Shown piece by piece: positions 1,913 to 29,115 of a stretch of 40,663 bases of DNA. The position numbers and the translations under genes are program-made. This stretch comes from Chrysophaeum taylorii (Eukaryota; Sar; Pelagophyceae; Pelagomonadales; Pelagomonadaceae): assembly GCA_029834535.1 (NCBI GenBank), contig JAQMWT010000596.1, forward strand, positions 1 through 40,663, in the 5' to 3' direction. Within the stretch, counting starts at the first letter, position 1. Every line of letters begins with the position of its first letter. The notes beneath the pieces are model-generated. The model had not been told where the DNA came from and did not search any database. It saw only the letters and a program-made list of their open reading frames with translations.

Positions 1913-2495
1913 GCGTGTAGACGCCGGGAGGGGGCTTGTCGGTATTGCGCAGCACGTGTGGGGTAGGGTGGAGTCGTCGACCCGGAAGAGGATAACCTCG
2001 GGGTTGCCGATCGACAGAGAGCCACGTAGAGCTGGACGTGGCAGAAGACGGGCTTGGGCAAGAGGACGCCGACCTCGCGGGGCGTCTGGCCCTGGCTCTT
2101 GGTGATCGTTTGGCGTCGGCGGGCCTTAAGGGATACAGGTTGGAGGAGCCTCGGTGACACGACATGATCGATCATGTATATGGTACCGTTGCAGTGGCCG
2201 TGCGACGGGTCGAGGTTGCGAAGACTTTAAGCTCGCTATCAAAGTTAGCATGCCGTTGGTTGTCAGGGAGTGGAAAACTCGACTCTTGAGAGCGAGGCGT
2301 CGTCTTCCGACCCAACCTAGTCGGCCGAAAAGAACTCCGACGCCTCGTCTCCGGGAAAAAAGGCCGCGGTCATGCGCGCGTTGTCAGCATCGACAACATC
2401 GTTTCGACGGGGCGTGAGAATGGCGCGCTGAAAGAGCCGCCGCGGGTCGTGGAAATAGTCTGCGAGGTCGCCGTAGACGGCTTCGAGGATCAATG
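1905..2495 (-). pseudogene. Helitron-type (PIF1-like) helicase C-terminus, copy A
   Basis: The minus strand encodes the end of a Helitron Rep/helicase. From high to low coordinate: YGDLADYFHDPRRLFQRAIL and TPRRNDVVDADNARM (family RAILTPRNDDVDAIN), FPGDEASEFFSAD, then in another frame [20 protein letters not shown] and [20 protein letters not shown] (family NKSQGQTL..VGVYLP.PVFSHGQLYVALSR, helicase motif VI region). The frames are joined by shifts, so this copy is dead. It ends abruptly at a G30 tract, whereas the other copies continue for about 30-50 bp of shared sequence. The closest alternative is a host PIF1 helicase, but four dispersed copies argue for a transposon. Confidence 0.8.
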
Positions 2496-2500
2496 GTTGG

Positions 2501-2501
<1 letters not shown>

Positions 2502-2531
<30 letters not shown>
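2502..2531. repeat. Poly-G tract, G30
   Basis: Thirty consecutive G residues interrupt the sequence exactly where Helitron copy A loses homology to copies B-D. It may be a real G-quadruplex-forming tract or a sequencing/assembly artefact at a join. Confidence 0.9.
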
Positions 2532-2532
<1 letters not shown>

Positions 2533-2559
2533 CATGGCGAAAATGAAATTTTCTACCTC

Positions 2560-2745
2560 TAAAACATAAAAGGGTGATTGATCAAACTTAATGCAACTTC
2601 GGAGTGACCAAACTTAACTGATCAAACTTCTATTGAAAGTGACCATACTTGTGAATTGTTCCTTAAACATACATCAAATCGAGCAAACTTGAAAGAAATT
2701 GACCAAACTTGTTGACCAAATTTGACCGATCCCTATAATTTTCGG
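2560..2745. repeat. Dispersed AAGTTTGGTCA-motif repeat, inverted relative to 28850-29010
   Basis: Contains several TGACCAAACTT or TGATCAAACTT motifs (reverse complement AAGTTTGGTCA). Read on the minus strand, the block matches 28850-29010 over about 160 bp with modest divergence, including the distinctive GTTTGCTCGATTTG and CACTCCGAAGTTGCATTAAG segments. It is therefore a member of an interspersed repeat family. No coding potential is visible. Confidence 0.8.
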
Positions 2746-2762
2746 GTAAATACAAGTGCAGG

Positions 2763-3106
2763 CCAGTAAGTTCACCTAGTCCCAATCTCCAACCCCAGTA
2801 ATTTCACCTGGTCCCCTTACGTTCACCTGGTCAGTAAGTTCACCTAGTCCCAATCTCTAACCCCAGTAACTTCGGCGTAAACCCACTCGTGCTCACACCC
2901 ACTCACCCCACTCTCCTTCGAGCTCGTCGCTCTCACCCCCGCCAATCCAAGCTGCTTTGATCCGCACGCGCCGCCAACCCTTGAGTTTACTCTAAAAACC
3001 CCAGTAAGTTCACCTGGTCCCAGTAAGTTCACCTGGTCACTCAGTTCACCTAGTCCCAATCTCAAACCCCAGTAAGTTCACAGTACCAGTAAGTTCACTT
3101 ACAGTG
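2763..3106. repeat. GTAAGTTCACC motif array B
   Basis: Same structure as the array at 1597-1912: copies of CAGTAAGTTCACCTGGTC and the CTAGTCCCAATCTC variant, around a central spacer with CCCACTCGTGCTCACA, CTTCGAGCTCGTCGCTCT and GAGTTTACTCTAAAAA. It abuts the 3' side of Helitron helicase copy B. Confidence 0.75.
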
Positions 3107-3705
3107 CGCGTGTAGACGCCGGGAGGGGGCTTAACGGTATTGCGCAGCACGTGTGGGGTAGGGTGGAGTCGTCGACTCAGAAGAGCATATCCTCGTGGTT
3201 GCCGATCGACAGAGAGCCACGTAGAGCTGGACGTGACAGAATACGGGCTTGGGCAAGAGGACGCCGACCTCGCGGGGCGTCTGGCCCTGGCTCTTGTTGA
3301 TCGTTTGGCGTCGGCGGGCCTTAAGGGATACAGGTTGGAGGAGCCTCGGTGACACGACACGATCGATCATGTATCTGGTACCGTTGCAGTGGCCGTGCGA
3401 CGGGTCGAGGTTGCGAAGACTTTAAGCTCGCGATCAAAGTCAGCATGCCGTTGGTTGTCAGGGAGTCGAAAACTCGACTGTAAAGAGCGAGGCGTCGTCT
3501 TCCGACCCAACCTAGTCTGCCGAAAAGAACTCCGACGCCTCGTCTCCGGGAAAAAAAGGCCGCGGTCATGCGCGCGTTGTCAGCATCGACAACATCGTTT
3601 CGACGGGGCGTGAGAATGGCGCGCTGAAAGAGCCGCCGCGGGTCGTGGAAATAGTCTGCGAGGTCGCCGTAGACGGCTTGGAGGATCAATGGCTGGCTCG
3701 CGGGC
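3100..3705 (-). pseudogene. Helitron-type helicase C-terminus, copy B
   Basis: A near-duplicate of the fragment at 1905-2495. Minus-strand motifs are [49 protein letters not shown] in one frame (family LRNLDPS.GLCNGTRL), [12 protein letters not shown] and [17 protein letters not shown]. The run of A after the NARMTAA segment is one base longer than in copy A and shifts the frame. A second shift separates the two halves. Between them the ancestral domain order of a Helitron/PIF1 helicase C-terminus can be read. The fragment is flanked at its high-coordinate side by CCTTACCCTAAATCGAGGGA, shared with copy D. Confidence 0.82.
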
Positions 3706-3729
3706 CTACCTGATCCTTACCCTAAATCG

Positions 3730-3866
3730 AGGGACAAACAGAAACGTACTTATCTCAGCCCGTCAGGCACATCCCTCATACCCCACAAACCCACCCACAT
3801 CCTTCATGCTCCCCACACACACCCCCCTCTTAGCAGTCGACATTTAAAGACAAACACAGACGGACT
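3730..3866 (+). mobile_element. LINE 3' tail fragment
   Basis: A short, 5'-truncated copy of the LINE 3' end: TACTTATCTC, GCCCGTCAGGCACATCC, CCACAAACCCACCCACATCC, CCCCCTCTTAGCAGTCGACA, TTTAAAGACAAACA. The same string ends the LINE copies at 5155 and 18432. A longer truncated LINE begins directly after it at about 3867, so insertions are stacked head to tail at the GACAAACA boundary. Confidence 0.75.
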
Positions 3867-5146
3867 TCGGGCTGATCTCCGTACCACGCTGGCTTCCCAC
3901 GGCGGCGCTGGTTCCGGCGACCTCGCCAACGTTCATCTCGTCGACGGTCCTCTCTCCCACGAATTCGTCTCCATGGGCGTCCTCGTCGACCCCACCATCT
4001 CGACACCCGTGCTCATACCCCAACTCCAGCGTGCTCTAACCTCCCAAGGCGAGACAGCTCGGGCCGCTGCACTCCAGCGCCTTGCGGCCACCTTTCCCAT
4101 CACCGATGCACTTCGAGTAGCGGCGTCCTCATGGGATCGCTTCTCGACCACGCTCATCAGCTCGTGGCCCAGCTCTGCCCATCAAAACCCCCAACCGCTG
4201 CTGGGCTGAGATGTGTGCCCAGTACTTTGGCTACCCCTCTCCAGCTTTTTCGGGCCTCGTGGGCACTCGCATTCTGGGCACTGACGTCGTTCTCGACGCT
4301 CACGGCAAGGTGCTTCTCACGCAGGCCAACCTTGTCAACCGCGGAGGAGCGCGGACCACCTGGAACGACAGCTTGCTCGATTGCGCCCTCTCCACCATCA
4401 AAGAGGCCGGCATCCCAGCCCTGTCCGAGGTTCTCGGCATCTTTGCTGACGTCGTCGCCCCTACCATTCGCACGCGCCTCTACGGCCGGTACCGAGGCAA
4501 TCTCGCCCGTCGCCACGTCGTCCCAGACATCCTCACCACGCTCGACAACAAGGAGCAGCTCTACGACATCAAAACCCTCGCTTGGGGTTCGTTCTACACC
4601 GCCCACGCCCTCCATCCCTCCCACCCGTCGCCTGTCGATCGGCGCGCAGCGCAAGTCCACTCCGAATACCTCGCTCACGCCCGCGGCATCGACGCCATCA
4701 TCCCCCAGCCGGGCACAGCACCACCGCCTGGCTTCTTGGGCCCTGTCGAACAGCGGCTACGTAGCTACGGCACCGTCGCCGGCCTCGTCTTTGGTGCCTT
4801 CGGTGAGGCCAGCGCGGCGTGCCACGCTCTCGCCCAAACATGCGCAGAGCGCATCGCTGCGCGAACCTGGGTGGCACGCGGCTGCGCCAACTTCACAGAG
4901 GCAAAGGCGGCCCAAACTCGCCGCATCTATCGTGAGTGGGGGATCGCCAACGCATTAGGCCGGGCTCGCTGTGCCCTCACCGCCCTCACCCATGTCGCCG
5001 CCTCGGGGAACCCCACCCAGGCCGCCCGATCCCAGCAGGACGTCACCCTTCGTCGCACATACGTCCGGCGGCAGCATGTGTACGACCTACGGGCGGGGCC
5101 CGTCCTCTCTTCGCCTGCCCCACGCCTCGGCGATGACCCCGACTAG
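3867..5146 (+). pseudogene. LINE (RLE-type non-LTR retrotransposon) C-terminal region, 5'-truncated
   Basis: Downstream part of a non-LTR retrotransposon polyprotein. The frame read from about 3901 (HLVDGPLSHEFVSMGVLVDP) runs to near 4188, where a C5 run causes a shift. The next frame, open to the TAG at 5144-5146, starts near CWAEMCAQYFGYPSPAF. It contains RRHVVPDILTT and YDIKTLAWGSFY (residues 105-106 PD and 119-121 DIK, counting from the Met at 4211), a layout matching a PD-(D/E)XK restriction-like endonuclease core, followed by PVEQRLRSYGTVAGLVFGAF and GEASAACHAL. I recall this C-terminal block from LINE-like elements in other protist genomes. RT itself is missing, as expected for 5' truncation. 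The last 390 bp closely match 18030-18425. Confidence 0.75.
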
Positions 5147-5352
5147 GTCCCGCGTACTTATCTCCGCCCGTCAGGCACATCCCTCATACCCCACAAACCC
5201 ACCCACATCCTTCATGCTTCCCACACACACCCCCCTCTTAGCAGTCGACATTTAAAGACAAACAGACAAACAGACAAACAGACAAACAGACAAACAGACA
5301 AACAGACAAACAGACAAACAGACAAACATCTGTCGATTTGTAGTAAGGAAGA
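5147..5352 (+). mobile_element. LINE 3' UTR and (ACAAACAG)n tail
   Basis: Directly follows the LINE stop codon. It carries the 3' UTR (CGCCCGTCAGGCACATCC ... CTTAGCAGTCGACATTTAAA), then about nine ACAAACAG units at 5258-5328, then CATCTGTCGATT. A microsatellite tail is common for non-LTR elements. The GTCGATTAGTAGTTAGGA sequence after the tail also follows the tails at 18603 and 24045, so it is either part of the element end or a preferred target. Confidence 0.8.
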
Positions 5353-5530
5353 TGCGGATTGACCAAACTTAAGTGACGAAACTTGTTGAGGGTTTACGGT
5401 GACCAAACTTATATGGTGGTTTCTAAATGTCGACTGCTAAGAGGGGTGTGTGTGTAGGGGGCATGAAGGATGTGGGTGGGTTTGTAACTTATATGGTGGT
5501 TGGCAACTTGACTTTTCCCAAAATTATATT
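5345..5530. repeat. AAGTTTGGTCA-family repeat carrying a LINE-tail insertion
   Basis: Matches 33445-33535 (GCGGATTGACCAAACTTAAG, GACGAAACTTGTTG, TTTACGGTGACCAAACTTAT, ATGGTGGTTGGCAACTTGAC, TTTTCCC) but is interrupted by a 64-bp insertion at 5422-5485. The 33-kb copy is the empty version of the same sequence. Confidence 0.8.
5422..5485 (-). mobile_element. Very short LINE-tail insertion with 16-bp target site duplication
   Basis: On the minus strand this 64-bp piece reads ACAAACCCACCCACATCC ... CTCTTAGCAGTCGACATTTA, the LINE 3' end. It is flanked by a perfect direct repeat, AACTTATATGGTGGTT, at 5406-5421 and 5486-5501. The homologous repeat at 33.49 kb lacks the insertion. These are the marks of target-primed reverse transcription with extreme 5' truncation. 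Confidence 0.85.
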
Positions 5531-5836
5531 CCTGTTGATGGAATCAACATTTACGAATCGAATAATCCTTTGGTTGAAAAACTAGCCCTCTCGAAGAGAG
5601 GCTTGTTTGCCAAAGCTCTTCGGGTGATTAATGCGTGCGCGAAACCGTCGTCGCCAGCTCAGTATATCAGTATGTTCGATACTAAACGGATCGCAAAAAA
5701 CGGGAAGTTCAATGTGCGTCCCGTCTGTCTGTCTGTCCTGTCAGTCTTCCGTATTTTCTTTTTAGCTCAAACAGAAAGAACGAAGATAAAGAAAAAAGAT
5801 AAGTCGTAAGTAACTTCCTTGAAAGAGAAATTACCT
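5503..5836 (+). other. Short unassigned open segment
   Basis: An open frame across about 5450-5809 contains GINIYESNNPLVEKLALSKR, GLFAKALRVINACAKPSS and MFDTKRIAKNGKF (about 5545-5712). The composition looks protein-like, then it degrades into TCTGTCTGTC and A-rich sequence. It may be a broken exon or a chance frame; I recognise no family. A 19-bp string AATAATCCTTTGGTTGAAA at 5561-5579 recurs at 7150-7168, so part of it is repeated DNA. Confidence 0.25.
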
Positions 5837-6489
5837 AATGGACGCAAGACTGCTTAGGACGGTTTTTCTTGCGGTTAGCCGCGTCGTGGCTCGCCCCTTC
5901 GTGGAGAGCGACGGCGGACCGCCGCGCGGCCCGGGATGACGTGAGAAACCGTCCGGCGCTCGGCGAGGCGGGAGATCGTGCGGGAAAACGAAAGAGGCGC
6001 AAGTTCCTTTGAAAAGGAACTGGTACTCGAGTGTCCTCGCCCAGGAGTGGGATGGTTCCCGAGCGCGAACGTGCGGTCCGTCGCGACAAGATGGGGCGAT
6101 TGCGGGCCGCTCGTCGTGAAGCTCTTGCCGCCGGCGACGAGGATGCGGCGATGCTGCTTGAGCGTCAACGCGAGGCCAAGCGTATTGCAATTGCAGAGCG
6201 GCGTGATGATCGTCTAGGAGAAGCGCACGCCGGCAACGAGTACGCGATGCGCGCGCTCGAAGACGAACGCGAGGCTCATCGCCACGTCGCAAGGCGCGAC
6301 AAACCGGCGACGAGGACGCGATGCGCGCGCTCGAGGACGAACGCGAGAGTGATCGTCAGCGCCACGCCGTATGCCGCAAGAGTTGCAGGGAAGCTAAACG
6401 AGCTCGTCGTAGTCACCAGCAGCGCTCCTCCCCCCCCCCCCCTTTCTAACTTTTTTTTTTCAACCAAAGCCCTGCCGCGCCGGCCCTAA
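5837..6489 (+). pseudogene. Arg/Glu/Ala-rich coiled-coil-like remnant
   Basis: The plus strand reads ERERAVRRDKMGRLRAARRE, GDEDAAMLLERQREAKRIAI, AMRALEDEREAHRHVARRD and, after a frame change near 6310, a second DEDAMRALEDERESDRQRHA. So a charged segment of about 40 residues is present about twice. Such basic/acidic repeats occur at the N-termini of some Helitron Rep-helicase proteins, and Helitron remains lie on both sides, but that link is only inference. 5837-6030 holds no clear gene. The end is C- and T-homopolymer rich (6427-6460). Confidence 0.35.
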
Positions 6490-6494
6490 TAATT

Positions 6495-6530
6495 CGACGA
6501 CCGACCGACCGACCGACCGACCGTCCGACC
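6495..6530. repeat. (GACC)n microsatellite
   Basis: About eight GACC/GACG tetranucleotide units, GACGACCGACCGACCGACC and onward. Confidence 0.9.
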
Positions 6531-6578
6531 AGTATAGAATTTATTAAATAGTCATGTTGGATGGAAGCTTAAAATATC

Positions 6579-6985
6579 TTGCCGATCTTAGCATATCTTG
6601 CGTGCTTGCCCCGGAGAAATGATGGCGACGCCTCGTGGGACGAGCCACGGCGTCTCGTGCCTAAAGAGCGCCGCGACACCGAGGGACGCGCGCGGCTTGC
6701 GCGGCACCGCCCGAGCGAAGCTGAGAAGCAGCTGAAGCACCGCGATCTCGACGCGGACCAAAAAGCGACATCGCGTGGGAGCGTGCGGCAAGACTAGGAA
6801 AAGGACCGCGAGCGAGGGCGAGAGCGTCGTGCTGCTACCGCGCGGCCGCAACACGAGGAAAATCAACGCGACCGAGCGCGAGAGCGTCGTGCTACCGGGC
6901 TGCCGCAACGGTAGGAAAAGGACCGCAAGCGCGCGCGACAGCGTCGTGCTACCGCGCGGCGGCAACACTATTGAAATGGAACGTT
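6579..6985 (+). repeat. Arg-rich coding-like tandem repeat, about 57-60 bp period
   Basis: From about 6783 there are three units that translate to versions of EKDRERGRERRAATARPQH, EENQRDRARERRAT and EKDRKRARQRRATARRQH, separated by TAG stops in two units. Upstream, 6606-6797 is an open frame with KERRDTEGRARLARHRPSEA and KQLKHRDLDADQKA. The amino-acid pattern is better conserved than expected for random DNA, so this was probably a basic coiled-coil region of a transposon protein, perhaps the Helitron. No intact product is possible. Confidence 0.4.
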
Positions 6986-7404
6986 CCACCGTCCGTCTAC
7001 TATTGTCGGAGTGTGAAATGGGACGTTCCACCATTCGTCTAGTATTCCACCATACGTCTATGTATGTCTCTAAAGGTCGACTGCGAAGGGGGGTGTGTGT
7101 GTGTGGTGCATGAAGGATGTGGGTGGTTTTGTCCATGCGCTTCCATAAAAATAATCCTTTGGTTGAAACGAGTTGAGAGGCGCAGACTTTATTTTTTTTT
7201 CCAGTACCCATACATCTGCTTTTTTATGATATCATGTTCTTTTTTTTTTTTTTTTTTTTATGAGATCTCTGCTACGCCCTTCTGGCACATCCTCACACGC
7301 GACACAACGCACCGTAAGACCACGGTGGGGGGAGAGTGCGAACGTGAGGGCCGCCGCTTCGCGTCGAGTGTGCTTATGGCGCTGGCATCGCGAGCGTTCG
7401 CGTG
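6972..7404. other. Non-coding mosaic with an inverted LINE tail and a T20 run
   Basis: At 6978-7060 a degenerate unit GGACGTTCCACCATTCGTCT occurs about three times. At 7067-7132 lies an inverted LINE-tail piece; the minus strand reads ACCACCCACATCCTTCATGC ... CGCAGTCGACCTTTAGAGA. A T20 homopolymer lies at 7240-7259. I see no gene. Confidence 0.6.
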
Positions 7405-8230: not shown

Positions 8231-8347
8231 CAGACTCCTGGCCCGCCACCCCACTACGCAGCGGCCCTTCTTCAGCACCAATTTCGAGCCTGGAAGCGAT
8301 AACGTCCTCGTCGATCCCTGGCAATATTCCGCCGCTTCCTGCGCCAC
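8231..8347 (+). mobile_element. LINE internal ORF fragment (plus strand)
   Basis: 117 bp matching the reverse complement of about 20265-20382: CAGACTCCTGGCCCGCCACC ... TTTCGAGCCTGGAAG ... CGCCGCTTCCTGCGCCAC. It encodes the end of the third IQ-like repeat (QFRAWK) and the lead-in to the RING-like finger. At the point where the minus-strand LINE has TGA, this copy has CGA, followed by TAA where the other has TTA. It ends exactly at the gypsy LTR. Confidence 0.8.
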
Positions 8348-8677
8348 TGTAGTGGTTTTCTCGGATACCCGCCCCTCCTGGCCGGACCGGGGGCCTCAAC
8401 AACCCTTCCTCCCAACCCGAACCGCGGGTGAAACCACCACACGCCCGATCTCCGCGCAATACCTCACGCCATCACGAAATCGGACAAACAAACGAGGGTA
8501 ATATCAAGAAGACAGCAAGAAAGCAATACAAATGCCCGGTACATTGGGTCCCGTGGAAGCGCAGGTGAAGATGTCGAGATGACACCCCCCCATAAATGCA
8601 ATATCAATACCAGGGCAACAATCAGGGTAAGTCAGGTGGCAGGCAGGCAAGTGGGGGAAATGGGCGTTACTGCCACA
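8348..8677 (-). repeat. Gypsy 3' LTR
   Basis: 330 bp beginning TGTAGTGGTTTTCTC and ending GTTACTGCCACA on the plus strand, aligned end to end with 17699-18029. On the sense (minus) strand it starts TGTGGCAGTAACGCC and ends ACCACTACA. Its left neighbour is a LINE fragment. Confidence 0.93.
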
Positions 8678-8925: not shown

Positions 8926-10365
8926 TCACTCAGCCAGAGGCTTAGTAGGATCAAAGACGCGAGGATCATCGCGTGGTCCCAAATCGGTATAGTAGTGAAG
9001 CGCAACTGTATCATTGTCGTGGTCATATTCTTCGTAGACTTCGGCAACATAGATACGCTTCTTCCACGCGTTGGATCGTCCTTTCACCCTGAAAATCACG
9101 AACTTACCATGTTTGAACCGGTCACGGTCCGAGGGTAAATGCAGAGGGGCTGAAGAAGTGTCGATGGTTGGCACTTTCAAAGGCACAATCTGCTGTACAG
9201 ATACTACAACCGATTCAGCATCATCGTCGTTAACGTCTTGAATTTCATAAACGACGGGAGAGATCTTTCTAGTAACCATGTAAGGTCCGCGCCAAATGGG
9301 CCGTAGCTTGTGGCGTGTCTTAGGCACGAAACGCAGAACATAATCACCTGGGGAAAACTGGATGTCAATTTGGTGGGCATCATAGTTGAGTTTTTGACTC
9401 TCCTGTGCTTTCTGATGAGCTCGTGTAACGAGTCGACTATAAAATTCAAACTTGTTCTTAAAGTCCACCAAAATCTGATGACGTGATTGCGGTAGATCAC
9501 GCTGTTCACTCAAAAGATTGTAATCGGGTGGTGACAGGGGTTGCTTGCCAGTACGCATCATGAAAGGTGAAATCTTCGTTCCCGGAATGTACATTCTATT
9601 GTACATGAATGACACATATGGGAGGAAACTCGACCAATCTGGCTGACGCTGTTCATCGATCGCAGCTCGCAAGAAGGCTTTGATGAATCGATTGACACGC
9701 TCAGTATGATTACTCTGAGGATGATACGGAAGGGTAGTACGATAACGTACGTTGAATTGACGAACAAACGTGCGAAATAACCTGTTCGCGAACTCATTTC
9801 CATTATCCGTGACTATGCACCGTGGGAGACATCCATCAAGTAAAATCTTGTCCACAAACGCGTTCAAAATCGAATAATCATGCTTCGTGTTGATCGGAGC
9901 TAATTTCAAGAAATGTGATGCTGCATCGTACATTGCGAGTATGTACGTGTACAGGTCAGCGCCTCGCAGAGGTCCAATCAAATCCATACCTAGGACATAG
10001 CAGTCTCCGACGCGATTCGGTTGACAGAGCAAGCCATGGCGCCTAGGCATGGCGGATCGAATCTTCTGGCAAATAATGCAGGCATTGACGAACTCATTAA
10101 CGGATGATGAGACGCTTGGCCACCAATACCGTTCTAAGATTTGATTCGCTGTGGAACCTCGTCCTACATGGCCTCCGAACAAGCCTCGGTGATGCATGGC
10201 GATCACACGCTTCTGCCTAGACTGAGGGTCCACAAGACGTTGAGAAGCTGAAATCATCGACCTTATACAACACGTTGTCATCAATCTCACATGGTACGGA
10301 TGACTGCTCGTCTTGATCTTTCTGTTCAGAGTCGAGCTTTCGTCTGATGCGCTTGCCTGTTTCAT
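8926..10365 (-). CDS. Ty3/gypsy integrase
   Basis: Inserts element cDNA into the host genome. Residues are counted from the first codon of this open segment (at 10365); the homologous part starts near residue 40. The N-terminal zinc-binding HHCC motif is seen as H59/H66 and C96-x2-C99 (GLFGGHVGRG ... NACIICQ). The catalytic triad is D128 (GMDLIGPL), D187 (VTDNGNEF) and E222 (HTERVNRF), with 34 residues between the last two, typical of DDE integrases. A PGDYVLRFVP ... WRGPYMVTRK segment (residues about 330-380) matches the gypsy C-terminal DNA-binding region. The tail FRVKGRSNAWKKRIYVAEVY may be a further module that I cannot name. A frameshift near 10250 separates it from RNase H. Confidence 0.88.
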   Translation of the reverse strand: MKQASASDESSTLNRKIKTSSHPYHVRLMTTCCIRSMISASQRLVDPQSRQKRVIAMHHRGLFGGHVGRGSTANQILERYWWPSVSSSVNEFVNACIICQKIRSAMPRRHGLLCQPNRVGDCYVLGMDLIGPLRGADLYTYILAMYDAASHFLKLAPINTKHDYSILNAFVDKILLDGCLPRCIVTDNGNEFANRLFRTFVRQFNVRYRTTLPYHPQSNHTERVNRFIKAFLRAAIDEQRQPDWSSFLPYVSFMYNRMYIPGTKISPFMMRTGKQPLSPPDYNLLSEQRDLPQSRHQILVDFKNKFEFYSRLVTRAHQKAQESQKLNYDAHQIDIQFSPGDYVLRFVPKTRHKLRPIWRGPYMVTRKISPVVYEIQDVNDDDAESVVVSVQQIVPLKVPTIDTSSAPLHLPSDRDRFKHGKFVIFRVKGRSNAWKKRIYVAEVYEEYDHDNDTVALHYYTDLGPRDDPRVFDPTKPLAE

Positions 10366-11464
10366 CCTCAGCTTGTTCTTTCGCTATCTCATCGAGAGTG
10401 ATCTCATCCTCCGCTTGATCCGCAAAAGGGAGACGTTCGACGGAGTCAACTGGCTCAGATTCGTACGAAAATTGAGGCGGCTGTACGTTCTGTCGCGTAC
10501 TAACTGCTACCATAGCTGCGGTGGGTCCGCTGTCCGTCGGCATAGGCATCGTCACCGAAGAGAAGGTGAAGCAAGCTCTGCCAGGGACATCGGTGGGGGT
10601 TTCTTGGAAAATCAAAAAAGCTTCATTGATCGGTTCCCCGTCTTCATCTTTCTCGATCAATTTGTCGATAGGGTTGCGCGACAGACAATCCGGAATACGC
10701 ATGCCAGGGGAGCTTCCAGGTTTGTATCCGAGCTCCCGGTCGAACGCACCAAGCCGCATAGCCCATCGTGCTAACTGTTCAGACGTATGATTCGAACCCC
10801 GCAGAAACGTTAAATTACGATGATCCGTCTCTAACTTCGTCTGATGACCTTCGATATAAAATCGGAAATTTTCGAGAGCAGAGAGTACTGCGAGGAGTTC
10901 CAAGCGCCGAGGATCGTACTTCCTCATCGACTTAGGCACGGTTCGACTCCAGTACTCGATAGCTCTCTCTTCGATTCTTTCTCTTCCATCGTCGTCAACG
11001 ACTGGTACTTTTTGAAATAGGTAAGCACCCAGCCCATGTGCGGAAGCATCAGTTCGAATGTAAAAAGGTAACGAGTAATCAGGATGATAGACGCCCTTCG
11101 AAGTGACAATAGCCTCGATGATGGCATCCCAAGCTCCCTGACACTCTTTCGTCCACTTGAATTTCACGTCCGGCAACGTCAGTTGTCTTAATGGCTCTGC
11201 AACTTTCGCAAAATTCCTTACATAACGCCGGCAAAAACTCCCCATTCCAAGGAAAGATCGCACTTGCTTCTTAGGGTCAGCATCCGACAAAGTGCCAGGA
11301 ATTGGCATGTGTCTGATGGCTTCTAAAGACCTTGGTGATGGAAGAAGTCCGTTCGGGGTAGATAAATGACCCAAAAACTCAATGACTTCTTGCATAAAAT
11401 GAATCTTCTTGATCTTGGCGCTGTACCCCTTCAAGCGAGATGGGGAATAACTTGCACAAGGCAC
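10217..11464 (-). CDS. RT C-terminus, RNase H and linker of gypsy pol
   Basis: Continues RT after a frameshift near 11438. LKGYSAKIKKIHFMQEVIEF and GHLSTPNGLLP match the RT thumb and connection. Then comes RNase H with FYIRTDASAHGLGAYLFQ (first Asp), RRLELLAVLSALENFRFYIE (Glu) and TKLETDHRNLTFL (Asp), which degrades RNA in the RNA-DNA hybrid. A 100-residue acidic linker (PFADQAEDEITLDEIAKEQA and similar) leads to integrase. The DNVLYKVDD end is the usual entry to the integrase zinc finger, after which the frame shifts. Confidence 0.87.
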   Translation of the reverse strand: MPCASYSPSRLKGYSAKIKKIHFMQEVIEFLGHLSTPNGLLPSPRSLEAIRHMPIPGTLSDADPKKQVRSFLGMGSFCRRYVRNFAKVAEPLRQLTLPDVKFKWTKECQGAWDAIIEAIVTSKGVYHPDYSLPFYIRTDASAHGLGAYLFQKVPVVDDDGRERIEERAIEYWSRTVPKSMRKYDPRRLELLAVLSALENFRFYIEGHQTKLETDHRNLTFLRGSNHTSEQLARWAMRLGAFDRELGYKPGSSPGMRIPDCLSRNPIDKLIEKDEDGEPINEAFLIFQETPTDVPGRACFTFSSVTMPMPTDSGPTAAMVAVSTRQNVQPPQFSYESEPVDSVERLPFADQAEDEITLDEIAKEQAEDETGKRIRRKLDSEQKDQDEQSSVPCEIDDNVLYKVDDFSFSTSCGPSV

Positions 11465-11952
11465 TGAAAGTGATTCTTTGTATCTGCGTGACCGGCGAGA
11501 ATATCGTCGATATATGCCACGAGATCACGATATAGCCATTGCGACAAGTCAGTGTTCAACTGCTTGCAAAACAAACTTCCGGCTGGTTTGACTCCCAAAG
11601 GTAGACGCATGTAGCTGTACGCTCCCAGAGGACTAGTGAAGGTGACCACATCTTGTGCATCTAGCGACAATCGTAAATTGTGATAGCCCCAACGAATATC
11701 CAAACTGGAACGACAAAACTTGTCAATGAGAAACATCAACGCGTCAGCCATGCTCACACTCGGCCAGCTATCATCCTTGAGCAATGCATTGAGGCGCCGT
11801 AGGTCGACAGCTGCTCTGTAAGCATTGGAAGTGCCAGGCTCGGCACCTTTCTTAGGCAACATCAAAATAGGGAAACCCCATGGAGAATTCGCGGGACGAA
11901 TAACTCCGTCTCGGGTCCATGCTTCAATCTGCATCCGCAAACATTCAATCTT
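11431..11952 (-). CDS. Gypsy reverse transcriptase, fingers and palm
   Basis: RNA-dependent DNA polymerase core. Visible motifs: GVIRPANSPWGFPILMLPKK, YRAAVDLRRLNALL (family R.C.DYR.LN), SSLDIRWGYHNLRL (catalytic first Asp), TFTSPLGAYSYMRLPLGVKP and the catalytic YIDDILAGH. The preceding segment ends PVKLSPCRLSK then TAA (11953-11955), then KIECLRMQIEAW in the same frame. The family continues without interruption here, so the TAA replaces a sense codon, most simply CAA (Gln). I start this entry right after that stop; no independent initiation is implied. Confidence 0.9.
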   Translation of the reverse strand, partial: KIECLRMQIEAWTRDGVIRPANSPWGFPILMLPKKGAEPGTSNAYRAAVDLRRLNALLKDDSWPSVSMADALMFLIDKFCRSSLDIRWGYHNLRLSLDAQDVVTFTSPLGAYSYMRLPLGVKPAGSLFCKQLNTDLSQWLYRDLVAYIDDILAGHADTKNHFQCLVQVIPHLA

Positions 11953-13755
11953 TTATTTCGACAACCGACATGGCGAGAGTTTGACGGGAGTCGGGTTCTC
12001 TTCTTTGAACCGGAGCGTCACTTCAGGTGAATCAACAGGTCTCATCACATCATCGAAAAATGCCCACGAATACGAGATTAAATGCTTCATCATCAGCTTC
12101 TCGTCATCATCTAAAGCAGGATGCTCTGTAATACCCAATTCAGTCATCACCTCTTCGACCTGCGCGACGGTCGGAGGGATGACCTGCATGCTCTCCTGAT
12201 CCGCTAAATGAGGAGGCATCACCGGTGAAGGTTGACCATGTTCGTCGTGAGGCGCGTCCGCCCACGGAACGTCGTACGTATTGAAATACGCTGGTCGCTC
12301 TTTCGCGGTGCCTTCTTCTTCAGCAGTTGCGGAGGGCTGGTTATCAACTTGGTTGCTCTGCATAACAGCAGTGGCGACGGTGCCCCCTGCAAAAGATGAA
12401 GCCGTCCCAGGCGATGTAACTGAAGGTGGTGGCGGGGTGGTGGGGGCAGCAGCTGATGGTGCAGGACTCGCAGGAGAATAGAGTTCATCGGGCGCAATCC
12501 ATGATACACTTCGAGTGGCAGGGTCGAGCGTTGGAATGCGCGACTCTACAGCAAAAGGTGAAAACCGTAGAATATGGTGATCAGGTTGGGCTAGCGTAGT
12601 CGTCGCAATATTCCGCAACTTACCCAAATTTCGAAGTGAAGGGTCAAACGAATTGTGCACTGCTAGCGCAATCCGCGTCATAGTCGCGGGTGGCACCATA
12701 CTGCCAAGCATCTTCATAGCTACTGTCTCGGAAACTGTCGCACCCCATTGCCACGTAGGAGGAACGGTCATAATTTCCTGGTGCATCTGCAACGTGAGTG
12801 GACGGGTGTTCGAAAAATGAGGTCCTAGGTGGAGCTTATTGCGCGTCACCGTGAAGGCAGGGCCGATAGCCGGGCGCGTAGATGAGAAACTGTTTACTAT
12901 AATGAGCGGGTGACCACCTGTAAATCCCAACGCTGGCCCAAAACGGTCCCGTAAATTCGGTGGTACACGCGATAATAACGGCAGTTCCAAGCGAACATTG
13001 CAAGCAAGTAGGCGCGTGCGCGAGCACAGCAATTCGGGTGTAATACTATAAAAATCAACAATACGCGGCACATAAAATTGGTGATGCACAAAAGGGATCA
13101 CTGATGGTTCCTGCTCGAGCGTCCATCGTCCAATCACATAAGGTGCGTTGCGGAAGTGACGCAGGACCCAAGAAGTAATAGTAGCGCCCTTGCGTGCGTC
13201 CCTGTAGTGCAAATTGGCAGTCGATCCATAGATACACGGCGGACTGGCGTGAAAATAAGAATGCTTCCAAAAATCTGAGTGTAAATACGACAACACCAAG
13301 TCGTATGTACGACGATGAGATTTCCCCAACTCATGCAAAACATAGGGAATCTTCGGAAAATTGAGCTCAAAGGTGGCTCGGGCTTGAGGACAAGCATCCA
13401 AAGCCAGGACAATGCGAAATGAACTGCCATATAGCTCATTGCATCGCCGGATACCCAACGTTGATCCTCCAGCGCCAGCAAAGTAGACGACGACAAAGGT
13501 GTAGGTGATGGGTATCCAAACCAAGGAGGCGTGCTTAGATAGCAGCTCCTTAGCAGTCGCCTCCATCTCCATTTCTGGTGTTTTTTTCACTTCTTCATCT
13601 GGAGGTGGCTGAGGAGGAGGTCTGTCACTCAAGACATCCTCCTCGACTTCATCGTCGTCAACAGCAGCCGTAAGAGTGGCATGACACACGTCATCAGTGG
13701 CTTCTAGCTGCATGTTGACACATCCTTCATGCGGCATGATCTCGCCTTCGACCAC
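11953..13755 (-). CDS. Cytosine-5 DNA methyltransferase domain within gypsy pol
   Basis: Residues are counted from 13755. Residues 85-370 (about 12646-13503) hold a full C5-methyltransferase fold: motif I VVYFAGAGGSTLGI (88-102, SAM binding), motif II-like IVLALDACPQARATFELNFP (115-134), motif IV FHASPPCIYG with catalytic Cys174, motif VI-like WTLEQEP (211-217; Glu kept, family ENV), motif VIII-like CSRTRLLAC (244-252), a short target-recognition stretch (about 255-315), motif IX RPLTLQMHQE (318-327) and motif X LGSMVPPATMTRIA (350-363). It would methylate cytosine in DNA. It is followed by a Pro/Ala-rich linker and ISYSWAFFDD ... NPTPVKLSPC, the normal RT lead-in. A frameshift near 13780 joins it to the upstream frame. 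The key catalytic residues look intact. Confidence 0.88.
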   Translation of the reverse strand: MVEGEIMPHEGCVNMQLEATDDVCHATLTAAVDDDEVEEDVLSDRPPPQPPPDEEVKKTPEMEMEATAKELLSKHASLVWIPITYTFVVVYFAGAGGSTLGIRRCNELYGSSFRIVLALDACPQARATFELNFPKIPYVLHELGKSHRRTYDLVLSYLHSDFWKHSYFHASPPCIYGSTANLHYRDARKGATITSWVLRHFRNAPYVIGRWTLEQEPSVIPFVHHQFYVPRIVDFYSITPELLCSRTRLLACNVRLELPLLSRVPPNLRDRFGPALGFTGGHPLIIVNSFSSTRPAIGPAFTVTRNKLHLGPHFSNTRPLTLQMHQEIMTVPPTWQWGATVSETVAMKMLGSMVPPATMTRIALAVHNSFDPSLRNLGKLRNIATTTLAQPDHHILRFSPFAVESRIPTLDPATRSVSWIAPDELYSPASPAPSAAAPTTPPPPSVTSPGTASSFAGGTVATAVMQSNQVDNQPSATAEEEGTAKERPAYFNTYDVPWADAPHDEHGQPSPVMPPHLADQESMQVIPPTVAQVEEVMTELGITEHPALDDDEKLMMKHLISYSWAFFDDVMRPVDSPEVTLRFKEENPTPVKLSPCRLSK

Positions 13756-15752
13756 CGGGACTTCGGGTCGATACCAATGGGTTCGTCACCAATGTGCTCC
13801 ACAGCCACATGAACTTCGTTGGGCTCATCAGCGCAATACGATGAATAGGAACCAGGTATAAGGCGGAGATCTTGGAGGAGTGATCGATAAGGTCGGAATA
13901 CGTGACCCTTTTCCAGCGGCACATCGCACTCCATCTCCAAGAAGTACGGTTGGCTTGGAAGAAGAAATCGAGTACTCGTCACGTACGCGAAATGAGGGAT
14001 GATATCTTCCTCGTCTGCAGGGCATTCAAGTTGGTCTTCCGCTTTTTCAGCAGTCTGATCACCGGGAGGAATGTGATGGTGATTCGCTCTGATACGAATA
14101 GAACGCAATAGACTGTCATAACTCCACGGTTTACCAACTGGCGTCCAAGTTTGGATATTTCCGTATTGCACAGCAAGCTTAGCTGTCGGGAACATCTGCA
14201 CTACCTGCGGAGTCGCATCGAATGCATCATTGTAAAGGACAATTCCATGCTGGTCTTGTGGCGAGGCGGAAGTCCGATTCTCGAGAACTCCAATGGTCAC
14301 TTCAGAACGCCGAAAAATAGCTCTCTCTGTCGCATAATCCAAAATCGTACTCAAGAGTCGTAATTCTCGTGCTCCTAATAGTAACTGCCCATTCGTTTGA
14401 CCAACGAAGAACATGAGCAGCATGGATGTCGTCGGCACCAAGGAGATTCGGAGAATGACCCATTCTCGAATAGGAGCTCCCGAACCTCCTGATCCATTTA
14501 GAGCACGAATAGTAGGGAGTGGCTGAAGATAGATGATTTTGCCGTCACGGTCAAGTTTGCGATACAAGCGGTGATCGATGTAGGGGGAATCAGCCATGCC
14601 ATCCAAACCGGCAGCGATGATGGAATATTTCGAACCATCTTGCGAAGAGATAGCCACAGGCACATACGTCAAAGAGGCGGATCTCGTGCCATCGTACCTT
14701 ACGGCTTTATTTTCACGGTGGTCGGGATCCTGAGTGATATTCAACGCAGTCTGAGGGCAGAAATTCTCGAAATCCGATGAGATAGAAGGGTGAGCAACAT
14801 AACGCTCGGCACAGTCGTCCCTCGGTGGCACTATATCCATGGCAACCAAGGTATCTTGTCCCACACGAACAATCGTATACCCCGATTCGTCACGATTATC
14901 TTCGTCTTCCGAGAGAATTCTAGATGCAACTCCAGTCACTTCGGTACTTTGCTCCTGCTCCTCCACCCATGCATCTTCAGTGATGACCAAAAAGGAAGGA
15001 GGTTCCAGGGGGTCACCAGGGGAATAGCCTTCTGCAGAGAAGCTATCATCATCGCCCCCAACCTCATCATCGTCATACACGTTGCCCTCCATGAGCTCAG
15101 AATACTGCACAGTGCAGTAGTCCGCTCGCTTAGTGTCATCCTGATCTTCGCCAAGCACTTCAAGCCACTGAGCGGCGACACCATCATTGTGCTGGCTAGG
15201 GTTCGCTCTCTGAGATTGTCGCCCTCTATCCGGCGGAGCCGTCTGCTGTGCCTGACGAATCAAGTTCATCGTGTTGAGAGCCGTAGTCAGATCCTCCAGG
15301 CGCACCGAGGTCTGAGCGGTCCGCTGCACTGCGGGCTGCCTTCGGACCACCTGTTGTTGAGAGCCTGCAACCAGCTGCTGTTGACCTGCACCTGGCACCT
15401 GTGCTGCTGTGTAAACCACCTGCGGCTGTTGCACAACGCGCGGCGCCAGCTGAGTCATTGAAGCCTGTCCTGCTGCAGCTAAAAGCGTACGTCGGTATTG
15501 CTCCTGTTCCTCTGGCGTTGCTGGAAAACCCGCAGTCGTCAACGTCTGAGCAGCACGCCTCTTCCTCGAGGGATTGTCCGGCACAGGACACACACCACAG
15601 TCGTGGTTAACACTACCATGCCGGCCGCAACTGAGGCACGTCGTAGTTGCTTGACGCGTATGGTTATCTATCCCCTGTGGTAGCCAGGTTCCAACTCCCG
15701 AGTCAGTAACATAACCAACCCGTTGGACTGGCTGCAACTGCTGCCTCTGCTG
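13704..15752 (-). CDS. Gypsy nucleocapsid zinc finger and protease-like region
   Basis: In the same frame as gag, directly after its TAG. Numbering from the TTG at 15737, C34-x2-C37 ... H45-x-C47-x2-C50 forms a zinc-finger candidate that is not the standard CCHC spacing. A Gln-rich segment (QQQLVAGSQQQVVRRQPAVQ) and an acidic segment follow. Near residue 370-460, SIIAAGLDGMADSPYIDHRL (14600 region) and GQLLLGARELRLL resemble the two halves of a retropepsin (active-site loop, and ILG). The expected D-S/T-G is replaced by D379-G-M-A. The C-terminal 120 residues (FLEMECDVPLEKGHVFRPYR) lead into the methyltransferase frame. This is plausibly a diverged aspartic protease; the assignment rests on position and the ILG-like box. 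Confidence 0.65.
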   Translation of the reverse strand, partial: QQRQQLQPVQRVGYVTDSGVGTWLPQGIDNHTRQATTTCLSCGRHGSVNHDCGVCPVPDNPSRKRRAAQTLTTAGFPATPEEQEQYRRTLLAAAGQASMTQLAPRVVQQPQVVYTAAQVPGAGQQQLVAGSQQQVVRRQPAVQRTAQTSVRLEDLTTALNTMNLIRQAQQTAPPDRGRQSQRANPSQHNDGVAAQWLEVLGEDQDDTKRADYCTVQYSELMEGNVYDDDEVGGDDDSFSAEGYSPGDPLEPPSFLVITEDAWVEEQEQSTEVTGVASRILSEDEDNRDESGYTIVRVGQDTLVAMDIVPPRDDCAERYVAHPSISSDFENFCPQTALNITQDPDHRENKAVRYDGTRSASLTYVPVAISSQDGSKYSIIAAGLDGMADSPYIDHRLYRKLDRDGKIIYLQPLPTIRALNGSGGSGAPIREWVILRISLVPTTSMLLMFFVGQTNGQLLLGARELRLLSTILDYATERAIFRRSEVTIGVLENRTSASPQDQHGIVLYNDAFDATPQVVQMFPTAKLAVQYGNIQTWTPVGKPWSYDSLLRSIRIRANHHHIPPGDQTAEKAEDQLECPADEEDIIPHFAYVTSTRFLLPSQPYFLEMECDVPLEKGHVFRPYRSLLQDLRLIPGSYSSYCADEPNEVHVAVEHIGDEPIGIDPKSRWSKARSCRMKDVSTCS

Positions 15753-17233: not shown

Positions 17234-17698
17234 GACCGCGATTTGCCCGGATAATAGGTTTGATCCGGACGTTCACAACTCACTTGTTGTATTCTTTTCG
17301 TCAGACGACAATTTCCGGCAGCCGTCTGACTACTGCGCGCTGTACCGGTGCGCTGGTCTTATGGAAGCACTTGCCTTGCGCGTGAAGACTATGGACGGCC
17401 TTCCCGGTGTTGTCGCTCGCCGTCAGGGAGGTGGTCTGCCTCGCGCGAGCTAGGTTAGGACTTATAACAATGCCTTACGATATGCAAAAGTATGCAAAAT
17501 GAGTCGTAGTGACTCCGCTCCCCGTTCGATCCGAATCACGTAAAATGAACCCCGCGGCGGTACCCGTGATCCTCTGGATCTTCATCCACAAATGCGTCGG
17601 CTTCGCACTCACTCGACCGTTACGAACCGACTCGCCGCCGAAAAACAGGAGATCGATAGTCCGGGTGTTGGACTATCGATTCCCGTTTCTGAGACCAC
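17234..17698 (-). promoter_or_regulatory. Gypsy 5' leader with candidate primer-binding site and hairpin
   Basis: Untranslated leader between the 5' LTR and the upstream ORF. Immediately inside the LTR the sense strand reads G then TGGTCTCAGAAACGGGAA (plus 17680-17697). It starts with the TGG expected of a primer-binding site complementary to a tRNA CCA end; I cannot name the tRNA. Next to it is a perfect 11-bp inverted repeat, ATCGATAGTCC (17652-17662) and GGACTATCGAT (17670-17680), with a 7-nt loop. It could act in RNA dimerisation or packaging. Nothing else is identifiable. Confidence 0.6.
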
Positions 17699-18029
17699 TG
17701 TAGTGGTTTTCTCAGATACCCGCCCCTCCTGGCCGGACCAGGGGCCTCAACAACCCTTCCTCCCAACCCGAACCGCGGGCGAAACCACCACACGCCCGAT
17801 CTCAGCGTAATACCTCACGCCATCATGAAATCGGACAATAATATGAGGGTAATGTCAAGAAGACACCAAGAAAGCAATACAAATGCCCGGTACATTGGGT
17901 CCAGTGGAAGCGCAGGTGAAGGTGTCGAGATGACATCCCCCCTATAAATGCAAGATCAATACCAGGGCAACAATCAGGGTAAGTCAGGTGGCAGGCAGGT
18001 AAGTGGGGGAAATGGGCGTTACTGCCACA
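17699..18029 (-). repeat. Gypsy 5' LTR
   Basis: 331 bp, TGTAGTGGTTTTCTC to GTTACTGCCACA on the plus strand, in the same orientation as 8348-8677. Differences from the other LTR include several CpG to TpG/CpA changes (see findings). The sense strand would carry the element promoter; a TTTATAG string (plus CTATAAA near 17941-17947) is a weak TATA candidate. Confidence 0.93.
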
Positions 18030-24000: not shown

Positions 24001-24067
24001 ACAAACAGACAGACAGACACACAGAGACAGACAAACAGACAAACATCTGTCGATTAGTAGTTAGGAT
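24001..24067 (+). mobile_element. (GACA/ACAAACAG)n tail remnant with the common LINE 3' flank
   Basis: GACAAACAGACAGACAGACA and further GACA/ACAAACAG units, then CATCTGTCGATTAGTAGTT and AGGATAT. It is the same tail-plus-flank arrangement as at 5330 and 18603. The ankyrin gene ATG lies 3 bp beyond. Confidence 0.7.
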
Positions 24068-24069
24068 AT

Positions 24070-25428
24070 ATGGAGGCGTCTTCGAGCGCGCAGCAGCTTA
24101 TCGAGGAGGGCTTCGAGCTTGAGAAAGCGGCGATCGACACGAGCCCGCTCCACTTGGCGTCTTGGTGCGGGCACGTCGAGGTCGTGTCGCGGCTCTTGAT
24201 GGCCGAGGGCGCCGAGGTTGATAAAGCGACGACCGACGTCGGCGCGACGCCACTTCATCTGGCGTCAGAGAACGGCAAGGTCGAGTGCGCGCAGATTTTG
24301 ATCGAGAATGGCGCAGGCGTCGATCGATCGCGTTCCATCGATGGCGCGACTCCGCTTCTTTTGGCGTCAAAGAATGGCCACGTCGAGTGCGCGCGGCTGT
24401 TGCTCGAGAAGGGCGCCGAGGTCGACAAAGCGACAACAGAGGTTGGCTGGACGCCGCTTCATCTGGCGTCTCAGAACGGCTTTGTGGAGTGCATGCGGCA
24501 CTTGATGGAAAAGGGGGCCGAGGTCGACAGAGCGACGACGGATAACGGCGCGACCGCGTTGCACCTTGCGTCTTGGAACGGCCGCGTCGAGTGCGCGCAG
24601 ATTTTGATCGCGAAAGGCGCCGAGGTTGATAAGACGACGACCGATGTCGGCGCGACCCCGCTTCACCTGGCGTCTCAGAACGGCAAGGTCGAATGCGCGA
24701 AGCTCTTGATCGAGAAGGAGGCAGATCAAGCGAGGGGGGAGGTTCTCCTGGAAGCTCGGGACGGAGAACAGAGCGCCGAGGCGACGGGCAACCCGACGGA
24801 GAACGACTGCGTGCAGCTCTTCATCGAGACGGGTGCCGATGTCAACGAAGTCACGACGAACAACGGCGCGTCTCCCCTCCACCTCGCGTCCCAGAACGGC
24901 CACGTCGACTGCGCGCGACTTTTGATCGCAAAGGGCGCCGAGGTCGACGAGGCGACGACCGACGACGGCTCTACGTCGCTTCAACTCGCGTCTCAGAACG
25001 GTCACGTCGAGTGCGTGCGTCTCTTGATCGAGGCGGGCGCCCAGATTGATAAAGCGAGGAGCGACAACGGAGCGACCCCGCTTCAACTCGCGTCTCTAAA
25101 AGGTCGCGTCGAGTGCGCGCGGCTCTTGGTCGCGTCGGGCGTCGACGTCAATACGGCAACGACGAACGGCGGGATGACTTCCCTCCACCTCGCTTCCCAG
25201 AATGACCACATCGAGTGCGTCCGCTTTTTGATCTCCAAAGGCGCCGACGTCAGGGCCACTACCTATCAGCGGCACACACCTCGCTTTCTTGCCAGAATGC
25301 CGGAAATTAGAGGCCTTTTGCTCAAGGCCGAAGCAATCTCTCACATCCGCTGTTGGCGTACGTGGAGGCAACAAACCTCTTCCTTTCGAGATGATGGCAA
25401 GAGGTTCGCCTTTTCGCGGCTCGCTTGA
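24070..25428 (+). CDS. Ankyrin-repeat protein
   Basis: 452 residues with about eleven 33-34-residue ankyrin repeats from residue 20 to about 405, each close to GATPLHLASQNGHVECARLL then IEKGAEVDKATTDN. The TPLHLA and G..EC..LLI...A.VD signatures are clear. Repeat 7 is partial, after a 20-residue non-repeat insert (EADQARGEVLLEARDGEQSA). The C-terminus (ISHIRCWRTWRQQTSSFRDD) is non-repeat and basic. Such proteins are protein-protein interaction scaffolds; no catalytic domain, signal peptide or membrane segment is seen. The ATG at 24070 is the first in frame and lies just after a LINE tail, so the gene may have lost its original 5' end or promoter. The repeats are very similar to each other at DNA level, indicating recent internal duplication. 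Confidence 0.88.
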   Translation: MEASSSAQQLIEEGFELEKAAIDTSPLHLASWCGHVEVVSRLLMAEGAEVDKATTDVGATPLHLASENGKVECAQILIENGAGVDRSRSIDGATPLLLASKNGHVECARLLLEKGAEVDKATTEVGWTPLHLASQNGFVECMRHLMEKGAEVDRATTDNGATALHLASWNGRVECAQILIAKGAEVDKTTTDVGATPLHLASQNGKVECAKLLIEKEADQARGEVLLEARDGEQSAEATGNPTENDCVQLFIETGADVNEVTTNNGASPLHLASQNGHVDCARLLIAKGAEVDEATTDDGSTSLQLASQNGHVECVRLLIEAGAQIDKARSDNGATPLQLASLKGRVECARLLVASGVDVNTATTNGGMTSLHLASQNDHIECVRFLISKGADVRATTYQRHTPRFLARMPEIRGLLLKAEAISHIRCWRTWRQQTSSFRDDGKRFAFSRLA

Positions 25429-28816: not shown

Positions 28817-28849
28817 AGTAGTGAGGTTCCGCACGATAAAAAAAAGGGA

Positions 28850-29115
28850 TCCGTCAAGTTTGGTCAAAAAGTTTGGTGAATTTCTTTCGTGTTTGCTCGA
28901 TTTGGATGTATGATTAAGGAAAAACTCATATGTGTGGTCACTTTCCATATAAGTTAGGTCAGTTAAGTTTGGTCACTCCGAAGTTGCATTAAGTTTGATC
29001 AATCAACTCTTCAAGTTTGATTAATTTCCTTGTAAGTTTGGTCAACAAGTTTGATCACTACTCCTCAAACTTCCACAGTATTGACCAAACTTCGGCTTTT
29101 TTAATCAAACTTAAG
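28850..29115. repeat. AAGTTTGGTCA motif array at the PRMT 5' end and MULE left side
   Basis: About ten AAGTTTGGTCA/AAGTTTGATCA motifs, mostly in plus orientation, with the last two reversed (TTGACCAAACTT, AATCAAACTT). Positions 28850-29010 match the inverted block at 2560-2745. It begins about 35 bp upstream of the preferred PRMT start codon, so it must supply PRMT 5' UTR or promoter sequence. It may also be the terminal region of the adjacent MULE. Confidence 0.75.

Follow-up and report, generated by a model that had tools for sequence, protein, structure and literature searches.

The window analysed here, a stretch of 40,663 nucleotides from the Chrysophaeum taylorii assembly (contig JAQMWT010000596.1), holds a Ty3/gypsy retrotransposon whose pol gene carries a C5-cytosine methyltransferase (DNA methyltransferase, DNMT) domain between a protease-like region and the reverse transcriptase (RT). 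A preliminary description, drawn from the letters alone, had proposed this arrangement, and both the order of the Pfam domains and a pair of flanking long terminal repeats (LTRs) bear it out. The domain is old within the gypsy lineage and is under purifying selection nearly as strict as that on RT, while the adjoining parts of pol drift. DNA methylation is usually a host weapon against transposons, and a retroelement that carries its own methylation enzyme represents a rare inversion of that defence.

A methyltransferase domain within a Ty3/gypsy Pol

Domain assignments in the frames of the window come from a Pfam profile search with curated cut-offs, in which rows at E <= 1 were considered. 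The profile search on which the preliminary description had staked its claim returned a match: the window domain scores 33.8 bits against PF00145 (DNA_methylase), compared with a curated cut-off of 22, and six of nine aligned family members match this profile at E <= 1. The motifs follow one another in canonical order, namely FAGAGG (I), SPPC (IV, with Cys100), LEQEP (VI, with Glu140), SRTR (VIII, with Arg172 and Arg174), RPLTLQ (IX), and LGSMVPP (X). These four catalytic residues are invariant across 13 aligned sequences, three stand-alone DNMTs among them, and 28 of 30 family copies retain all four. The predicted structure shows the fold of C5-methyltransferases; the fold Z scores do not separate DNMT families. 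Profile, predicted fold, and catalytic residues mark the region, as far as sequence and model go, as a C5-cytosine methyltransferase domain, and it would be expected to transfer methyl groups to cytosine.

On the minus strand, the element reads gag-like, protease-like, DNMT, RT, RNase H, and integrase (Table 1). The order RT, RNase H, and integrase that places an element in Ty3/gypsy was found by Pfam both in the window and in a second locus, L056, and the LTRs that flank the window element are 94% identical (326/348). The window copy is decayed, its coding parts being split over more than one open frame to judge from their coordinates, and no target-site duplication was recognised by eye around it. 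Other family members have the same domain order in longer frames. In L035, a natural frame of 1737 aa joins DNMT and RT, with RVT_1 and PF00145 both over cut-off, and in L056 a natural frame of 3026 aa, which runs to the end of the stretch, comprises DNMT, RT, RNase H, and integrase (PF00145 reaches 18.9 bits over this whole frame, under cut-off). Beyond this genome, the order is found in protein P0003, described below.

Retropepsins carry D[ST]GA at the position where the protease-like stretch GLDGMADSPYID reads DGMAD, and no protease family was matched by Pfam at E <= 1 in the N-terminal part of Pol.

Table 1. Parts of the DNMT-bearing element, with positions in the window
Feature	Position	Strand	Basis
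C5-cytosine methyltransferase (DNMT) domain, 296 aa	12646..13533	-	PF00145 and motifs
610-aa open frame: DNMT domain, fast-evolving linker (about residues 371-520), and pre-RT part	11956..13785	-	Pfam search; dN/dS by region
Pol N-terminal part with protease-like stretch GLDGMADSPYID ... QLLLGARE	13707..15752	-	protease by position and resemblance only
gag-like frame, 433 aa	15756..17054	-	weak Retrotrans_gag PF03732, E 0.019, under cut-off
Reverse transcriptase (RVT_1)	11434..11952	-	E 4.4e-9
RT C-terminal part and RNase H	10220..11524	-	PF17917 7.2e-25; PF17919 7.9e-23
Integrase: H2C2 zinc finger, rve core, p58-type C-terminal domain	8929..10383	-	1.1e-15; 6e-8; 1.8e-6
5' LTR, starts TGTGGCAG at 18029; inner end approximate	17683..18029	-	LTR-pair identity, start motif
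3' LTR	8332..8677	-	LTR-pair identity, start motif

Copy number, selection, and relatives of the domain

The assembly searched comprises 70.8 Mb in 697 contigs. The window lineage (lineage A) is represented by 83 matched stretches, merged by eye into 72 loci, and 13 of these stretches are free of stops from residue 7 or earlier through residue 610. Lineage B (L034), whose domain is 42% identical to that of lineage A, adds at least 133 stretches (133 scored of 1007 candidates), and lineage C (L078) adds 23 loci at 79-100% identity in a by-eye count, two of them possibly allelic; the remaining rows of the lineage C search, at 45-50% identity, were taken as lineage B. This recurrence rules out a one-off insertion, the outcome that the preliminary description had named as fatal to its reading. 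When the upstream regions of eight gypsy RT loci that had not been seen in the DNMT lists were read, the domain was present in six, frameshifted or diverged, and absent in two. For one 70.8-Mb assembly, three lineages of gypsy elements together with a copia-like family (see below) make a heavy load. L078 itself (C95:9100-12200), the third gypsy DNMT lineage, has TPPC at motif IV and IIEQEP at motif VI.

Ratios of nonsynonymous to synonymous substitution (dN/dS) were estimated by the Nei-Gojobori method. In 30 copies compared with L035, domain residues 95-370 have a median of 0.063 (0.049-0.094) at a dS of about 1.6, while residues 7-94 stand at 0.239, the linker at 0.372, and the pre-RT part at 0.065. 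For the window copy against L035, the values are 0.061 (0.034-0.092) in DNMT and 0.025 (0.014-0.055) in RT. Lineage B, represented by L034 against L056, gives 0.054 (0.033-0.093) in DNMT, 0.038 (0.021-0.059) in the RT frame, and 0.166 in the 200 aa preceding the domain. On these values, the domain is kept nearly as strictly as RT, with drift in the pol sequence beside it. A comparison of the window lineage with lineage B was set aside for saturated synonymous sites, and one with a second, frameshifted piece in L018 (0.53 over the domain) was likewise left out of account.

A search with the domain profile (8000 scored candidates) recovered two proteins: P0001, a 332-aa product of a marine eukaryote transcript that starts after motif I (1.3e-34, 30% identity), and P0002, a DNMT (7.2e-5). 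P0003, from a region search, is a protein of 982 aa in which a DNMT-homologous stretch (1.7e-41, 34% identity over 97% of the domain) is followed by RT and RNase H; it keeps the SPPC, LEQEP, RRR, and VPP letters, with motif I altered. Motif IV reads SPSC in P0001. Neither P0001 nor P0003 matched PF00145 at E <= 1, and no homologue of the whole 610-aa open reading frame (ORF) was found at E 0.001 among the 8000 candidates scored.

In a tree of 14 sequences, lineages A, B, and C, P0003, and P0001 form a group (100/99) that excludes the DNMTs of copia-like elements and phages as well as host DNMT2 and DNMT5; the program warns of long branches. Identities to lineage A fall in a like order for DNMT (85% within A, 42% for B, 37% for C, and 36% for P0003) and for RT (91%, 65%, 66%, and 48%, respectively), which fits a single ancient acquisition carried along with Pol. 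In the tree (midpoint root), however, P0003 and P0001 lie closer to lineages B and C than to lineage A at 90/89, and the order of splits is therefore tentative. A PDB sequence search with the 610-aa ORF gave no match, and searches with profiles gave weak matches only, including the DNMT2 chains 9hgm and 1g55 (E 1.5-1.6); no DNMT3 chain in the PDB was matched by the gypsy profiles at E <= 10, and the tree held no Dnmt3 sequence. Compared with the host enzymes (L031/L032), the domain gave E 0.002-0.15 for DNMT2 and 0.39 at best for DNMT5, short of clear homology. A viral or prokaryotic source of the gypsy domain was tried and rejected (of 63 candidate stretches, two matched, each a phage-type DNMT), as were a source in prokaryote genomes (0 of 124) and kin on viral contigs for the copia domain (0 of 39) and for P0003 (0 of 9).

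A second DNMT occurs in copia-like elements; neither it nor the DNMT-less derivatives treated further on had been foreseen in the preliminary description. In L033 (C96:61000-68000; pol at 2097-7001), a protease-like motif precedes it and a sub-threshold integrase (rve) match follows, with no intervening RT match; the stretch covered runs as far as the rve region. This DNMT keeps LPCQ, ENVPP, and SKTR, matches PF00145 at 8.5e-8, occurs in 149 stretches of the genome, and has a dN/dS of 0.11-0.14 in its core. By eye, the gap from motif VIII (pol residue ~467) to the likely motifs IX-X (~782-820) is much larger, and for this reason the copia-like DNMT looks like a capture separate from that of the gypsy DNMT. 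A structure model of it was not used (predicted local distance difference test score, pLDDT, 39). The window also has RVT_2-type copia fragments at 38081-40123 (minus strand) and 27-1306 (plus strand; RVT_2 under cut-off at 27-695). The copia RT family of window 38-39 kb numbers 138 stretches, whose loci, by eye, differ from the copia-DNMT loci, and the DNMT-bearing copia pol has no match anywhere in the window.

Retroelement DNMTs are not unprecedented, as parts of an earlier report describe SymbioLINE-Dnmt, SymbioDIRS-Dnmt3 (for whose DNMTs CG methylation is stated), and KnitGypsy-Dnmt3 (de Mendoza et al., 2018, PMC5890265), and a passage from 2025 again mentions DNMT3s within structures of retrotransposons, termed LTR Copia and DIRS (PMC12344493). 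KnitGypsy-Dnmt3 of Klebsormidium nitens is, like the present domain, a DNMT inside a gypsy LTR Pol with conserved functional residues, and both are under purifying selection (Ka/Ks <0.2 there, about 0.06 here); its DNMT is Dnmt3-related by phylogeny, whereas ours has a Glu-Gln (EQ) motif VI and lies apart from the DNMTs compared, Dnmt3 not among them (passages of PMC5890265). The present host also differs in not being a charophyte, to judge from its plastid Rubisco, and in holding hundreds of DNMT stretches and a second DNMT in copia-like elements. Like the Symbiodinium elements, the present ones are retroelements that took up a DNMT, number in the hundreds, seem to stem from more than one independent event in a host lineage, and coexist with DNMT-less relatives (parts of PMC5890265). 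Those, however, are DIRS elements and long interspersed nuclear elements (LINEs), whereas ours are gypsy and copia-like, and the rve integrase and LTRs rule out a LINE or DIRS backbone for the window element; moreover, the SymbioDIRS DNMT is a Dnmt3, and the SymbioLINE DNMT is an orphan lineage marked by CG depletion, a feature not seen in the present element (parts of PMC5890265).

By description, the orphan sequences themselves standing outside our comparison, the gypsy domain also resembles orphan eukaryotic DNMTs in forming a clade of limited extent that stands apart from the DNMT2 and DNMT5 sequences compared (passages of PMC12344493). It shares fold and motif order with M.HaeIII, M.HhaI, and phage C5-methyltransferases, and differs from them in its low identity (16-20% by structural alignment), the missing Gln of PCQ, the EQ motif VI, and the short target-recognition region. 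In the open-licence literature searched, we recognised no report of such elements in algae beyond dinoflagellates and a charophyte, nor of an EQ-motif DNMT clade, and in passages of PMC12477816, PMC9998398, PMC6338049, PMC11105155, PMC11453091, and PMC9246332 we saw no additional example of a DNMT carried by a retrotransposon in this way. The idea of another retrotransposon capture of a cytosine methyltransferase is supported, in a host group other than those of Symbiodinium and Klebsormidium.

Possible roles of the enzyme

What has been set out so far is the existence of the enzyme, its conservation, and its catalytic residues; the steps that follow are those we infer. Our favoured reading, held with somewhat less than even confidence, is that the DNMT is made in gag-pol, is packaged, and methylates the cDNA of the element, such that new insertions arrive methylated. 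The domain would be translated as part of gag-pol and packaged alongside RT and integrase in the virus-like particle, where it could methylate cytosines of double-stranded cDNA (or of pre-integration DNA) with S-adenosylmethionine. The pre-methylated DNA would then integrate, and host DNMT5 might copy the mark onward. Perhaps incoming DNA would thereby resemble host DNA, or perhaps the daughter copy would be quickly quieted, with a lower cost to the host as the likely benefit.

Several observations, set out in this and the next two paragraphs, count against that proposal. The ENV and PCQ letters are usual, not universal, in C5-methyltransferases; here motif VI is EQ rather than ENV, with the Glu kept, and in motif IV the Gln of PCQ is absent, both features being common to the gypsy lineages, P0001, and P0003. 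The preliminary description had been right about the non-ENV motif VI and the short target-recognition region. Three canonical DNMTs were part of the alignment behind the structure model, in which the loop that follows Cys100 scores a pLDDT <50. Among the 30 copies themselves, the contrast in selection is milder (pooled pN/pS 0.243 for the domain, against 0.534, 0.413, and 0.521 for the three other parts), as expected if many copies are already dead, and 12 of the 30 have a stop or unreadable codon inside the domain.

Mutation patterns point the same way. Long-lasting CG methylation should lead to decay of CG to TG, and transition rates per site in 107 close pairs are 0.0219 at CG, 0.0185 at CHG, and 0.0220 at CHH. 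Across 16 flanking contexts (12 disjoint pairs), rates range from 0.66 to 1.28 times the mean without an outlier. Private C>T and G>A changes (368 and 409) total 777 and do not exceed the 877 in the reverse direction (T>C 453, A>G 424); 229 of the 777 fall at CG, and CG makes up 28% of the sites in the close-pair comparison. Observed/expected ratios of CpG are 1.06 for the element and 1.12 for the remainder of the window, against 1.04-1.16 for other DNMT loci and 1.21 and 1.47 for two gene loci; those of TpG/CpA are 1.12 for the element and 1.01 for the remainder of the window. In this comparison, which includes no DNMT-less elements, the elements are slightly CG-poorer than genes, not depleted. 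The suggestion in the preliminary description that the element could write CpG methylation on its own DNA thus finds little support in mutation patterns, a test of low power. Hypermutation of L029, which has TGA-type stops, was considered and rejected, as the changes private to this copy form an unremarkable spectrum (C>T 11, G>A 10, T>C 14, A>G 8, and 28 transversions).

Derivatives of the window family that lack the domain are a further point. In L075 (C248) and L071 (C335), the pre-DNMT part is joined straight to the post-DNMT part, with an open frame in L075. A junction-spanning search listed 154 stretches, of which only those of C248 and of C335 at 27 kb were read as sequence. The match is contiguous over the whole junction query in C248 and C394, and falls into overlapping pieces in two frames, apparently one and the same junction, in C209 and in C335 at 27 kb. 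The two parts are separated by 219 bases in C335 at 14 kb and in C627, and by 117 bases in C311 at 80 kb and in C51. Altogether, eight DNMT-less loci have three junction types, with gaps too small for the 0.9-kb domain, and the domain is therefore not essential in cis; its activity would be either dispensable or supplied in trans. That junctions are common to different contigs suggests that DNMT-less forms were copied after loss of the domain, and any single pair could be allelic assembly duplicates. Such derivatives alongside a DNMT-bearing family amount to a natural experiment.

One alternative, which we consider unlikely, is that the domain, in the manner of DNMT2-like enzymes, methylates RNA rather than DNA (such as the genomic RNA or the tRNA primer) or serves chiefly to bind nucleic acid while the particle assembles or reverse transcription proceeds. 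In its favour are the DNMT2 chains among the weak profile matches, the lack of a clear mutation bias of the 5-methylcytosine type, and the unusual motif VI; in addition, parts of PMC5890265 report the SymbioLINE DNMT without DNA methylation in yeast and discuss a role on RNA.

A further alternative turns on the enzymes of the host. Host DNMT2 has its best PDB match in 1g55 (human DNMT2; 3.9e-39), and a protein that joins DNMT and SNF2 matches 7r76 (4.8e-198; listed as Rad8), which we take to be Cryptococcus Dnmt5, making this protein presumably the host DNMT5. A by-eye comparison of the best candidates listed with PF00145 matches >25 bits (57) gave one DNMT2, one DNMT5, and 55 copia-DNMT stretches; no other host DNMT is among these listed matches, from which intron-split genes may escape. 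A plastid-type rbcL lies on contig C697, with its best PDB Rubisco match in 7yk5 (1.7e-299), and the matched Rubiscos are presumably of the red-lineage (diatom/red-algal) form. According to passages of one report, DNMT5 of Cryptococcus maintains methylation and is without de novo activity (PMC9246332). About as doubtful as an action on RNA is the idea that the retrotransposon enzyme acts mainly on the host genome, methylating it de novo, with host DNMT5 keeping the mark, and so quiets the element or alters surrounding chromatin after integration. The make-up of the PF00145 list, the maintenance activity of the Cryptococcus enzyme, and the hundreds of DNMT stretches in the genome would fit such an action; on the other side, the list holds the best candidates, may miss intron-split genes, and was only partly traced for matches <25 bits.

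It is tempting to speculate, with less confidence still, that retrotransposon DNMTs (the gypsy EQ clade together with the separately acquired copia-like DNMT) supply de novo methylation where the sole recognised DNA-acting host enzyme is a maintenance-type DNMT5. If true, mobile elements, not host genes, would start the methylome. The DNMT-less derivatives, with a host set recognised as DNMT5 and DNMT2 only, make the source of de novo methylation in DNMT5-only lineages directly testable.

More improbable again is that the domain shields cDNA against a nuclease or deaminase of the host directed at unmodified cytosines. This idea has already been published (in a part of PMC5890265), and it agrees with selection on the domain of the same order as that on RT and with the lack of a C-to-T excess among the private changes; against it, DNMT-less derivatives have apparently been copied in the same genome. 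Finally, a chance motif match, a misassembly, or a one-off insertion, to which the modest Pfam score, the lack of PF00145 matches in P0001 and P0003, and the lack of whole-ORF homologues among the 8000 candidates might seem to point, is refuted by the present results and keeps a vanishingly small probability.

Other features of the window and the assembly

Beyond the element, the window has a long ankyrin-repeat open frame at 24061-25428 (plus strand) and an open frame of 938 aa at 26156-28972 (minus strand), with a start resembling tetratricopeptide repeats and a methyltransferase domain (Methyltransf_25/PrmA); by eye, the latter is like a protein arginine methyltransferase. A remnant at 34104-35722 (plus strand) has a sub-threshold match to DUF659, a domain that occurs in hAT-type transposases. 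Elsewhere in the assembly, contig C696 carries eight high-scoring RT domains, which are probably ORFs of group II introns in an organelle genome.
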